Under the pieces are notes generated by a model. That model saw only the letters and a list, made by a program, of their open reading frames with translations. It was not told where the DNA came from and did no database searches. The position numbers and the translations under genes were made by a program. 64,000 nt of DNA from Arabidopsis thaliana (lineage: Eukaryota > Streptophyta > Magnoliopsida > Brassicales > Brassicaceae): the NCBI RefSeq assembly GCF_000001735.4, contig NC_003071.7:11711151-11775150 (forward strand), given 5' to 3'. Position 1 is the first letter of the stretch, and the number at the start of each line of letters is the position of its first letter. Below, piece after piece: positions 2,261 to 35,225 of this stretch.

Positions 2261-4546
2261 ATGAGAGTCCCACTAATAGATTTCTTGAGATTCTTAGTAC
2301 TCATTCTTTCTCTTAGTGGTGCTTCAGTTGCTGCAGATGCAACGGTGAAGCAAAACTTTAATAAGTATGAGACTGATAGTGGTCACGCACATCCGCCACC
2401 AATTTATGGTGCCCCACCCAGCTACACAACACCACCACCACCAATTTACAGTCCTCCCATATATCCACCACCAATACAAAAGCCTCCGACTTATAGTCCT
2501 CCCATATATCCACCACCAATACAAAAACCTCCCACCCCAACTTATAGTCCTCCCATATATCCACCACCAATACAAAAGCCCCCGACACCAACTTACAGTC
2601 CTCCCATTTATCCACCACCAATACAAAAGCCTCCGACCCCAACTTATAGTCCTCCCATATATCCACCACCAATACAAAAGCCTCCGACACCAAGTTATAG
2701 TCCTCCTGTTAAACCACCTCCGGTACAAATGCCTCCTACACCAACTTATAGTCCCCCTATAAAACCACCACCAGTACATAAGCCTCCGACACCAACTTAC
2801 AGCCCCCCTATAAAACCACCAGTGCATAAGCCTCCGACACCAATTTACAGTCCTCCAATCAAGCCACCACCAGTGCACAAGCCTCCGACACCAATTTATA
2901 GTCCTCCGATCAAACCACCACCAGTGCACAAGCCTCCAACACCAACTTATAGTCCCCCGGTCAAGCCACCGCCAGTGCATAAACCTCCAACACCAATATA
3001 TAGTCCTCCAATCAAGCCACCACCAGTGCACAAGCCTCCAACACCAATTTACAGTCCCCCTGTTAAACCACCACCTGTGCAAACGCCTCCAACACCAATA
3101 TACAGTCCTCCTGTAAAGCCACCACCAGTGCATAAGCCTCCAACACCGACTTACAGCCCTCCAGTAAAATCACCTCCCGTTCAGAAGCCTCCTACCCCTA
3201 CTTATAGTCCTCCGATTAAGCCACCACCAGTGCAAAAGCCTCCAACACCAACTTATAGTCCACCAATTAAACCGCCACCAGTGAAGCCTCCAACTCCAAT
3301 ATACAGTCCACCTGTGAAGCCACCACCAGTACATAAGCCTCCTACACCAATTTATAGCCCACCTGTCAAGCCACCACCAGTGCATAAGCCTCCAACACCA
3401 ATTTACAGCCCTCCAGTAAAACCACCTCCCATTCAGAAGCCTCCTACCCCTACTTATAGTCCTCCGATTAAGCCACCACCACTTCAAAAGCCTCCAACAC
3501 CAACTTATAGTCCACCAATTAAACTGCCACCAGTGAAGCCTCCAACTCCAATATACAGTCCACCTGTGAAGCCACCACCAGTACATAAGCCTCCTACACC
3601 AATTTATAGTCCACCTGTCAAGCCACCACCAGTGCATAAGCCTCCAACACCAACTTATAGTCCACCAATTAAACCCCCACCAGTGAAGCCCCCAACACCC
3701 ACATACAGTCCACCTGTTCAGCCACCACCAGTGCAAAAACCGCCAACACCGACTTATAGTCCACCTGTCAAGCCACCGCCAATACAAAAACCACCGACGC
3801 CGACTTACAGTCCACCTATTAAACCACCACCAGTGAAGCCTCCGACACCAACATATAGTCCTCCAATCAAGCCACCACCAGTTCATAAGCCTCCGACACC
3901 AACTTACAGTCCACCTATCAAGCCACCTCCAATTCATAAACCTCCGACACCAACTTACAGTCCACCTATCAAGCCACCACCAGTGCATAAGCCTCCGACA
4001 CCAACTTACAGTCCACCTATCAAGCCACCACCAGTGCATAAGCCTCCGACACCAACTTACAGTCCACCTATCAAGCCACCACCAGTGCATAAGCCTCCGA
4101 CACCAACTTACAGTCCACCTATCAAGCCACCACCAGTGCATAAGCCTCCGACACCAACATACAGTCCTCCTATCAAGCCACCACCAGTTCATAAGCCTCC
4201 GACACCAACATACAGTCCACCTATCAAGCCACCACCAGTGCAAAAGCCTCCTACCCCAACTTATAGCCCTCCAGTAAAGCCACCACCAGTACAATTGCCT
4301 CCAACCCCAACTTATAGCCCTCCCGTAAAACCACCACCAGTACAAGTGCCTCCAACCCCAACTTATAGCCCTCCCGTAAAACCACCACCAGTACAAGTAC
4401 CTCCAACACCAACTTATAGCCCTCCCATAAAACCACCACCGGTACAAGTGCCTCCAACACCAACTACTCCATCACCTCCCCAAGGTGGATACGGTACTCC
4501 TCCTCCATATGCATATCTATCGCATCCTATAGACATAAGGAACTAG
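2261..4546 (+). CDS. EPR1: Extensin-like proline-rich cell-wall protein EPR1
   Basis: Single-exon protein of 761 residues. Residues 1-25 are a signal peptide with a hydrophobic core (FLRFLVLILSLSGASVAA). From about residue 50 to 735 the protein is a nearly unbroken series of a 17-residue unit close to PPTPTYSPPIKPPPVHK, about 40 copies. Some units lack one residue. The tail (GGYGTPPPYAYLSHP) is non-repetitive. Proline-rich wall proteins of this type are secreted, hydroxylated and cross-linked through tyrosine and lysine. The SPPPP blocks of classical extensins are missing; the unit has SPPI/V instead, so 'extensin-like' is the safer label. The family member I recall here (AT2G27380) is expressed in endosperm during germination, which is literature memory and not visible in the sequence. 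The Trp-rich frames on the other strand are shadows. Confidence 0.95.
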   Translation: MRVPLIDFLRFLVLILSLSGASVAADATVKQNFNKYETDSGHAHPPPIYGAPPSYTTPPPPIYSPPIYPPPIQKPPTYSPPIYPPPIQKPPTPTYSPPIYPPPIQKPPTPTYSPPIYPPPIQKPPTPTYSPPIYPPPIQKPPTPSYSPPVKPPPVQMPPTPTYSPPIKPPPVHKPPTPTYSPPIKPPVHKPPTPIYSPPIKPPPVHKPPTPIYSPPIKPPPVHKPPTPTYSPPVKPPPVHKPPTPIYSPPIKPPPVHKPPTPIYSPPVKPPPVQTPPTPIYSPPVKPPPVHKPPTPTYSPPVKSPPVQKPPTPTYSPPIKPPPVQKPPTPTYSPPIKPPPVKPPTPIYSPPVKPPPVHKPPTPIYSPPVKPPPVHKPPTPIYSPPVKPPPIQKPPTPTYSPPIKPPPLQKPPTPTYSPPIKLPPVKPPTPIYSPPVKPPPVHKPPTPIYSPPVKPPPVHKPPTPTYSPPIKPPPVKPPTPTYSPPVQPPPVQKPPTPTYSPPVKPPPIQKPPTPTYSPPIKPPPVKPPTPTYSPPIKPPPVHKPPTPTYSPPIKPPPIHKPPTPTYSPPIKPPPVHKPPTPTYSPPIKPPPVHKPPTPTYSPPIKPPPVHKPPTPTYSPPIKPPPVHKPPTPTYSPPIKPPPVHKPPTPTYSPPIKPPPVQKPPTPTYSPPVKPPPVQLPPTPTYSPPVKPPPVQVPPTPTYSPPVKPPPVQVPPTPTYSPPIKPPPVQVPPTPTTPSPPQGGYGTPPPYAYLSHPIDIRN
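2400..4470 (+). repeat. 51-bp coding minisatellite of EPR1 with a 252-bp higher-order duplication
   Basis: The unit is 51 bp (17 codons). Between about 3950 and 4190 several adjacent units are identical or nearly so, suggesting recent unequal exchange. A larger block of five units, one of them a residue short, is duplicated in tandem with a 252-bp period: it starts at 3173 and again at 3425, and the copies differ at only a few bases. Confidence 0.9.
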
Positions 4547-10175: not shown

Positions 10176-10814
10176 TGCCATGAATTTTGAAATATAGTTC
10201 AAAAAGGCCTACTTGGAATTATCATATTTTTTCCCCTTACTCTATTTGTCAACGCTTGAGTCTAACTTATTGGATAACCAGTACAGTTGTAAACTTTAAA
10301 TATGCAAAGCTATGTATGATTCATGAGAAGCTTTCGAATGTATATAGAAAAATTTGAATCATTGAGTGGAATGTGAATACAGAAGTAATGTAAAAATTAT
10401 ATCATTTATATTGAAATTGTAAACAATTTGATTTCAGCTTTGGTACACAAAAGCAAATAAAATTACAAAATTGAAATCAAATTAATTACAATGTGAAAGA
10501 TGCATGTAATTAGCTGACTTGCTTCATGTAGACTTCACAACACCTTGTAAAAGAGACTACACAACACCCATTACAAGCCTTGCAAAATAAGAATACCAAC
10601 ATCCATTTTTTATTTTGCATATACTGAAATATGTTTTGGTTACACGGAAACAATTTTAAAGAAAATAATTGTATCATCAACTGTTCATTAAGTAGAAAAT
10701 AACATTTAATGTGAACATATTCAAGGATAACTTTTGCATATCCTAGAATATATCCAATGCTTTTTCTAGTTTCGCCATTACTACAAATATCATTCACGAT
10801 ATCTTCCATTTCTC

Positions 10815-10835
10815 TACGCTATGTTGGACTTAGAA
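10815..10835 (-). ncRNA. ta-siRNA siR255/siR480, phase register D6
   Basis: The 21 bases match the known TAS1 siRNA beginning TTCTAAGTCCAACATAG as I remember it. Register arithmetic from the cleavage point (10940 minus 5 x 21) gives 10835 as the 5' end, an exact match. Confidence 0.9.
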
Positions 10836-10925
10836 TAATTTCCTAAGATCCAATCAAACGCTATGTTAGACTTAAAATAATTTTCTAAGATCTTATCGAA
10901 CGCTATGTTGGACTTAGGATGAATG
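10817..10925 (-). repeat. Three-copy 42-bp repeat in phase with the siRNA register
   Basis: Units begin at 10817, 10859 and 10901 on the plus strand, each with CGCTATGTT[G/A]GACTTA followed in two units by AATAATTT[C/T]CTAAGATC. The third unit is truncated by the sequence next to the miR173 site. The period, 42, is twice 21. Confidence 0.95.
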
Positions 10926-11090
10926 ACTCATTCGCTTGTAGAGAAAAATCACAACAAAACAATATTTCTCCTCTTGAAAATATATCTCCGTATTCCAATG
11001 AATACCAAAAACAGAGAGGGCGACGGGAGGGGAAGGGACGAAACTCCTACATGGCTGGTGACAAATAGACAGGGATATCGAACCTAACAT
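10914..11090 (-). CDS. 58-codon short ORF spanning the miR173 site
   Basis: The minus strand has an ATG at 11090 and stays open to TAA at 10914-10916, running through the whole miR173 site. The peptide starts MLGSISLSICHQPC and ends YKRMSHSS; it has no recognised domain. Two shorter frames start upstream on the same transcript: ATG at 11252 (18 codons) and ATG at 11171 (15 codons). For TAS2, a short ORF across the miR173 site has been reported to promote ta-siRNA production. This frame may play the same cis role rather than make a useful peptide. Confidence 0.35.
   Translation of the reverse strand: MLGSISLSICHQPCRSFVPSPPVALSVFGIHWNTEIYFQEEKYCFVVIFLYKRMSHSS
10931..10952 (-). promoter_or_regulatory. 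miR173 target site in TAS1A
   Basis: The plus strand here equals the miR173 sequence as I recall it, except at miRNA positions 9 (a C:A mismatch) and 14 (a G:U wobble). Everything else pairs, including the seed and positions 10-11. This 22-nt miRNA site triggers secondary siRNA production on the 3' cleavage product. Confidence 0.93.
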
Positions 11091-34045: not shown

Positions 34046-35225
34046 TCATTCATCTTCTTCATCACTCTCTACCTCTTCACCACTTCCACTTACGCTCCCG
34101 TCCTCGTTCTCATTATCTTCACCAACCCCGCTCCCATTTTCTTCCATGCTATGGTCCTCATTCCCGCTCTCTTCGCTCTCATTCCCATTCTCTTCCATGC
34201 TGTTTTCCTCATCCTCCTTCTCGTTCTCCTCATCATTCCCATTCTCTTCCGTATTTTCATCGTCGTTCTCCTCATCATTCCCATTCTCTTCTGTATTTTC
34301 ATCGTCATTCTCATCTTCCTCATCGTTTCCATTCTCATCCTCCTCATCGTTTCCATTCTCTTCTTCCGTGTTGTCATTCTCAGTCTCCTCGTCATTCCTC
34401 TTAGTTTCCTCATCTATTTTGCTTTTCCTTGCACCCTTTTGCGTAGATGGTTCTTCCTGTTTCCTCTTCTTCGTCTCTTTGGGCTTCGAAGCAGTTCCAC
34501 TTGAAGATTTCAAAGCAGCTCCACCAGCAGGATACGAAGCAGCTGCAGCACCCGCCTTTTTCCCCGCATTCTTCTTCTTAAAATCTGAAAACCAGTCATG
34601 TGGATTACACTAGGATTGACATCATAAGCTCAAAGTGCACACACCTAGGCCAGTGTCCATAACAAGACAAATCACAACCTAAGCCATTTCTACTAACACT
34701 CCATGAAAGTAACAACAGATAGTGACAATAGGATCTTCATCCGAACAAAACACTTACCTTCAAGAGAAGATTTAAGCGGCTCCAAAAATTCTGAAAAATC
34801 CATTTCTTCTAATGCCTTAAACACATCATCAGCCTTCATAGTTTGTCTTCTTGCATCTTTACAAAAATCATTTGCCCTATATCATTCACCCCCAAATTAA
34901 ACTAAATCCATCAATTCGATCGATCACAATTCACAAACACTAACATTCATCAATTGAATCACATTAACATAAACCCAAACTTGGAACATTCCAAATCATT
35001 CACTATCATAGTGCAGAAATTCGAAAAAAAGTTAGGGTTTGTGAAGTGTACATACGTGGCGGAGAGGTAGTGGATGAAGATCCTCGCACTCTCTGAGAAT
35101 GCGAGCAAAGCTTCCTTGTGAATACTGACGTCATAATCCGGCGAACACTCCGACAGCTTCTTCTTCACCACCCGGCGCACAATAGCTAGCGGCAGCTCGT
35201 CCACCACCACTTTCTCCGACTCCAT
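34046..35225 (-). CDS. NF-YB11: Histone-fold protein NF-YB11 (POLE3/Dpb4-like)
   Basis: Three exons, 35056-35225, 34758-34876 and 34046-34584, give 275 residues. The histone fold (LPLAIVRRVVKKKL ... SIHKEALLAFSESARIFIHY ... ANDFCKDARRQTMKADDVFK ... ALEEMDFSEFL) is followed by a Lys-rich linker and a long acidic tail of repeated ENGNDEE and DDENTEE units. It is filed under NF-YB, but the pattern LPxAIVxRxVK, the KALEEMDF motif and the acidic tail match the POLE3/Dpb4 (CHRAC17) branch, a subunit of DNA polymerase epsilon and chromatin remodellers. That functional reading is inference. It is head-to-head with CML48, about 435 bp between start codons. I recall AT2G27470. Confidence 0.92.

Follow-up and report, generated by a model that had tools for sequence, protein, structure and literature searches.

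Why should a ta-siRNA gene carry a tandem repeat whose period is an exact multiple of the 21-nt register of its siRNAs? This question is raised by a minus-strand gene in the window analyzed here (a 64,000-nt stretch of contig 2, positions 11711151-11775150), which we take to be Arabidopsis thaliana TAS1A (AT2G27400) by its miR173 site and its siR255. It is compared below with three loci of the same genome, presumably TAS1B (contig 1), TAS1C and TAS2 (both contig 2), and with a control locus that we likewise take to be TAS3a. These names for TAS loci agree with those in passages of PMC3925372.

The miR173 site and the registers of TAS1A

TAS1A is transcribed off the minus strand, and its miR173 site at 10952-10931 (-) is unique in the window when up to 3 mismatches are allowed, while 100 shuffles gave 0 matches. 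The presumed cut was placed opposite miR173 nucleotides 10/11, and 21-nt registers were counted from 10940. The same cut placement was used for TAS1B, TAS1C and TAS2, which also have miR173-like sites; a search for relatives by miR173 site in viral contigs gave 0 matches.

10931..10952, minus strand: miR173 target site of TAS1A, inferred cut 10941/10940
10920..10940, minus strand: 3'D1(+), the anchor register, whose offset in the alignment is shared by TAS1A, TAS1B and TAS1C

The register is supported by siR255, which coincides exactly with 3'D6; by its letters we take D6 for siR255/siR480(+). With a site complementary to miR173 and siR255 in register with the presumed cut, TAS1A has the sequence features of a miR173-triggered TAS1 gene. 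An earlier note on this DNA had claimed that a miR173 cut at 10941/10940 sets the 21-nt registers, and D2, D4 and D6 lie where that note had put them. For pollen, passages of PMC2808329 give five (+) and five (-) phased siRNAs from AT2G27400, not split by register.

The 42-bp array

Tandem Repeats Finder (TRF) reports an array at 10816-10916 with a period of 42, 2.4 copies, 88% matches and no indels, which begins about one register past the miR173 cut. The array and its registers are as follows.

10816..10916, minus strand: 42-bp tandem array, 2.4 copies (D2 to D6)
10899..10919, minus strand: 3'D2(+), siR255-like variant, 2 differences from siR255, 5'U
10878..10898, minus strand: 3'D3, spacer half-unit, (-) strand the favoured guide by end stability
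10857..10877, minus strand: 3'D4(+), siR255-like, 3 differences from siR255, weak predicted HTT-like pairing
10836..10856, minus strand: 3'D5, spacer half-unit, homologous to TAS1C 3'D2 (17/21)
10815..10835, minus strand: 3'D6(+), taken to be siR255/siR480(+), identical to TAS1B 3'D6 and TAS1C 3'D3

The repeat search gave spacings of exactly 42 and 42, so the period of 2 x 21 over three units that had been claimed agrees with both methods. Two of these units are full, but of the third roughly one half is present (64% over 42 nt, the TRF array stopping at 10916). Similarly, D2, D4 and D6 are indeed near-copies, but they differ from one another at 2-3 positions (D2/D6 2, D2/D4 3, D4/D6 3) and not at the 1-5 that had been stated. 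D3 and D5 are near-copies as well (4 differences), and the array therefore spans about five registers, D2-D6.

The period of 42 by itself is weak evidence for phase locking. It proves little because 1 in 21 repeats would have a multiple of 21 as its period by chance, and because the window contains a second tandem array of period 42, at 34209-34340. Other repeats in the window are a 51-bp unit in 39 copies at 2489-4465, proline-rich if coding, and a 48-bp unit present twice (95% matches) in AT-rich DNA at 758-852.

siR255-like units in the paralogues

TAS1B and TAS1C resemble TAS1A in having a miR173 site, an identical siR255 and an in-register siR255-like neighbour. siR255 is found at D6 in TAS1A, D6 in TAS1B and D3 in TAS1C, and its siblings at D2 and D4, at D5, and at D4, respectively; thus, 7/7 siR255-like units across the three TAS1 loci are in register, at differing register numbers. 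The two paralogues differ from TAS1A in that their siR255-like repeats have a period of 21 and two copies each (D5/D6 in TAS1B, D3/D4 in TAS1C), with no repeat of a 42-bp unit. The comparison of repeat periods in related loci that the earlier note had suggested thus favours its proposal that the TAS1A repeat is locked to the 21-nt register, although TAS1B also carries a 38-nt out-of-phase duplication described below, and the observation is stronger with the paralogues included than from TAS1A alone. We found no account of a phase lock across TAS1 paralogues in the titles, abstract openings and some passages of the open literature that were covered, and one may well be in print.

The 21 letters of siR255 are identical (21/21) in TAS1A, TAS1B and TAS1C, whereas D2 and D4 have drifted; this points to siR255 as the product under constraint, with the copies being secondary. 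That TAS1a, TAS1b and TAS1c yield an identical siR255 is already known, as stated in passages of PMC3091872. TAS1A D2, TAS1A D4 and TAS1C D4 each have one exact match in the genome and siR255 has three; reads of these three variants could be assigned to one locus, and reads of siR255 could not. The D5-D6 unit of TAS1A is closer to TAS1C D2-D3 (38/42) than to its own neighbour D3-D4 (35/42), so either the duplication in TAS1A is not recent relative to the TAS1A/TAS1C split or D3-D4 has evolved faster.

TAS2, which lies near TAS1C, is like TAS1A in its miR173 site. It differs in that neither a siR255-like unit nor an internal repeat in phase was found in it, and its post-cut matches to TAS1 are mostly out of phase: by a hand count outside the main analysis, 1/10 of the matches to TAS1A, TAS1B and TAS1C with both ends past the cut, anchors aside, is in phase. 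Phase is unconserved between TAS1 and TAS2.

Predicted targets and strand choice of the copies

siR255 silences HTT genes, according to passages of PMC6011422 and PMC6796840, the former listing five such genes. Searched against the genome at up to 3 mismatches, the 19-nt siR255 pattern matched 32 places and its reversed control also 32, and matches at 3 mismatches are thus at chance level. Seven of the 32 places are TAS1 units and seven others (six with 2 mismatches, one with 3) were scored by an Allen-type penalty; the remaining 18 all have 3 mismatches. The seven scored sites lie in open frames coding YVGLRD, a small gene family that we take to be the HTT genes and their relatives.

In predicted pairing, siR255 has a score of 2.5 at four of these sites, and the other three score 3.0, 3.5 and 5.5. 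TAS1A D2 has a lower penalty than siR255 at the two HTT-like sites on chromosome 5 (1.5 against 2.5) and pairs worse than siR255 at the other five (4.5 or worse). Scores of the remaining variants are 4.5 or worse at 7/7 sites for TAS1A D4, 3.5 or worse for TAS1B D5, which ties with siR255 at two sites, and, for TAS1C D4, 3.5 at a single site on chromosome 4 and at least 5.5 at the other six; none of the three beats siR255 at any scored site. When TAS1C D4 was itself used as the query, it found itself and three places with 3 mismatches, none among the seven sites (control 7), and the D5 spacer, searched for a target of its own, matched 10 places within 3 mismatches (TAS1A itself exactly, nine others with 3 mismatches; reversed control 3). 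Two of the seven, L009 (G000:C3:15185981) and L010 (G000:C1:17792722), are HTT-like YVGLRD sites beyond the five taken as published siR255 targets, and L009, at a siR255 score of 3.5 (L010 5.5), may be a further target.

All seven (+) strands of the siR255-like units start with 5'U, and nearest-neighbour energies make their 5' end the less stable one, for TAS1A D2 by no more than 0.17 kcal/mol. The spacer registers TAS1A D3 and D5, TAS1B D4 and TAS1C D2 favour the other strand, TAS1B marginally. Passages of PMC3135789 describe ta-siRNAs as mostly U-starting and predominantly AGO1-associated, and the siR255-like (+) strands may likewise be loaded into AGO1.

These predictions bear on the reading offered by the earlier note, namely that through the repeat one cleavage event would release a small family of related siRNAs, which would raise the dose or broaden the targets; here these would be the HTT genes, and the repeat would have been favoured for that reason. 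The 5'U on all variants, the shared ATATCG of TAS1C D4 and one chromosome-4 site and the pairing of D2 at the chromosome-5 sites fit such a reading. Only 1.3% of 200,000 draws of two random substitutions in siR255 reached 1.5 or better at any of the seven sites; four variants were inspected, however, which brings this figure nearer 5% and leaves it suggestive at most. D2 may be a useful variant for the two sites and D4 looks decayed, as far as predicted pairing can tell. The drift of D2 and D4 against a D6 that is constant in three loci also speaks against a selected family. This reading is compatible with selection on phase, and as the reason for the repeat we consider it possible but rather doubtful.

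An origin of the repeat unit from an HTT gene was considered and rejected: ungapped matches (score at least 15) between TAS1 and five HTT-like regions lie within siR255-like units and extend over at most 19 nt.

Phase of length differences along the TAS1 loci

Ungapped local matches (HSPs) were collected among TAS1A, TAS1B and TAS1C up to 600 nt from the cut, and the anchor HSP at the cut was dropped. The nonzero offsets divisible by 21 are given by minimum score.

Score 12: D1-D10 13/14, upstream 0/19, downstream 1/16, zone-spanning 0/6
Score 14: D1-D10 13/14, upstream 0/16, downstream 1/13, zone-spanning 0/4
Score 16: D1-D10 11/12, upstream 0/15, downstream 1/8, zone-spanning 0/3
Score 18: D1-D10 8/9, upstream 0/15, downstream 1/5, zone-spanning 0/1

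These counts are descriptive and not a significance test, since HSPs share history and repeated units yield several offsets from few events; in addition, the D10 boundary was chosen after the match list had been inspected, and most upstream indels fall below 21 nt, which limits their use as a control for large ones.

The single miss within D1-D10 is the 38-nt out-of-phase duplication in TAS1B. It lies 125-192 nt past the cut, directly behind the last siR255 copy, and beyond it 1/7 TAS1A/TAS1B matches is in register. We read it as the end of constraint, though it is the sole exception in 14. TAS1A has an out-of-phase duplication too, farther downstream:

10530..10577, minus strand: tandem duplication of 24 nt in D18-D20, a length that breaks the 21-nt phase

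Together, the two indicate that duplications of lengths other than multiples of 21 do arise in TAS1 genes; between the cut and siR255, no out-of-phase duplication was found in TAS1A, TAS1B or TAS1C.

Outside the repeat, too, there is at least one length difference that keeps phase, in the following part of TAS1A.

10773..10814, minus strand: 3'D7-D8, 42 nt outside the repeat, no TAS1C match above shuffles
10731..10772, minus strand: 3'D9-D10, in-register homologue of TAS1C 3'D5-D6 (offset 84 = 4 x 21)

The 42 nt of D7-D8 match TAS1C at 20/42 (shuffle mean 21.2), and D9-D10 match TAS1C D5-D6 at 37/41, in register. A second stretch of 42 nt, TAS1B D2-D3, matches TAS1A and TAS1C at 22/42 and 20/42 (shuffle means 21.5 and 21.2). 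A conservative count gives three events—the two stretches and the unit length—for which the chance of phase is (1/21)^3, about 1e-4. TAS1B D2-D3 may instead be a repeat unit decayed beyond recognition, since TAS1A and TAS1B are equal in length there, and the events would then be two only. The repeat, the registers, the in-phase offsets between paralogues and the identity of D6 can all be read from the letters of these loci. A separate observation concerns the D9-D10 block: passages of PMC2845630 assign TTTTGCATATCCTAGAATATA to TAS1C and the variant CTGGAATATG to TAS1A, and in this genome the two map oppositely (TAS1C L005; TAS1A 10731-10772), each 1 nt off register.

Could phase have come free, a 21- or 42-nt unit having grown and shrunk by replication slippage or unequal crossing-over without selection? 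Each of the three TAS1 loci has more than one siR255-like unit, most in-phase offsets involve these units themselves, and a decayed unit at TAS1B D2-D3 would fit. However, slippage leaves the unit length of 21 itself to chance, TAS1B D2-D3 is unlike the repeat by ungapped match, and D7-D8 of TAS1A is unmatched in TAS1C, yet D9-D10 and TAS1C D5-D6 are in register across the difference. We therefore regard slippage alone as unlikely. That the period merely happens to equal 42, as in other tandem arrays such as that at 34209-34340 and at a chance of 1/21 per repeat, is highly improbable given that, apart from one exception, multiples of 21 also recur in the repeats of TAS1B and TAS1C and in the length differences as far as D10.

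Discussion

The explanation that we favour is that selection probably keeps siR255, together with a further block in TAS1A and TAS1C, in phase with the miR173 cut; selection as the cause is what we infer from the phase of the paralogues. From the cut to its last useful siRNA, TAS1A would be subject to something like a reading frame of 21 nt. The 42-bp repeat would have arisen when a unit of two registers, with a spacer half followed by a siR255 half, was duplicated in tandem, and it would have been retained because 42 = 2 x 21 does not disturb the register of siR255 (D6) or of the D9-D10 block; any length upstream of D6 that is not a multiple of 21 would put siR255 out of register. With siR255 kept in phase, D2 and D4 would be in register as an automatic result, and one cleaved transcript could yield three related 5'U siRNAs, of which D2 would plausibly help to silence the chromosome-5 HTT pair and D4 would be decaying. 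A period that is a multiple of 21 would be needed for the phase of D6 anyway, with or without functional D2 and D4, and the siRNA family may be a by-product, perhaps partly used.

Tandem in-phase near-copies are already known from TAS3, and TAS1A is a further case. In our positive control, TAS3a, the copies are 21 nt apart and, counted from the 3' miR390 site, fall on D7 and D8 but for a shift of 1 nt. TAS1A fits a TAS3-like arrangement, with near-identical siRNA sequences, a spacing divisible by 21 and both copies in register; the TAS3 tasiARFs 5'D7(+) and 5'D8(+) likewise come as near-identical siRNAs from neighbouring registers of a single transcript, and passages of PMC4006784 describe these tandem ta-siRNAs as near-identical and in register. 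TAS3 differs in its miR390/AGO7 trigger, its registers upstream of the cut, its period of 21 and not 42, and its ARF targets.

Comparison with TAS1 in other Brassicaceae may have few subjects, because TAS1 appears so restricted: passages of PMC4457045 place TAS1 in A. thaliana only and TAS2 in A. thaliana and A. lyrata only, among 23 species, and passages of PMC6011422 report no TAS1 found in B. rapa.

We tentatively extend the proposal to ta-siRNA genes in general, an extension that may hold but that we consider somewhat less likely than not: such genes would have a 21-nt reading frame from the trigger site to the last functional siRNA, in which no indels persist other than those in steps of 21. 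The place where phase is lost, after D6 in TAS1B, D10 in TAS1A and D6 in TAS1C, would then mark the final siRNA of importance. Many ta-siRNA registers are without a known role, and if phase is kept only as far as the last useful siRNA, a comparison of loci would show which siRNAs are maintained by selection, with no need for target prediction. For TAS1 this would also imply a division of labour, TAS1A D2 acting on the two chromosome-5 HTT genes and siR255 on all. If true, conservation of phase would separate functional from waste registers in any PHAS locus.
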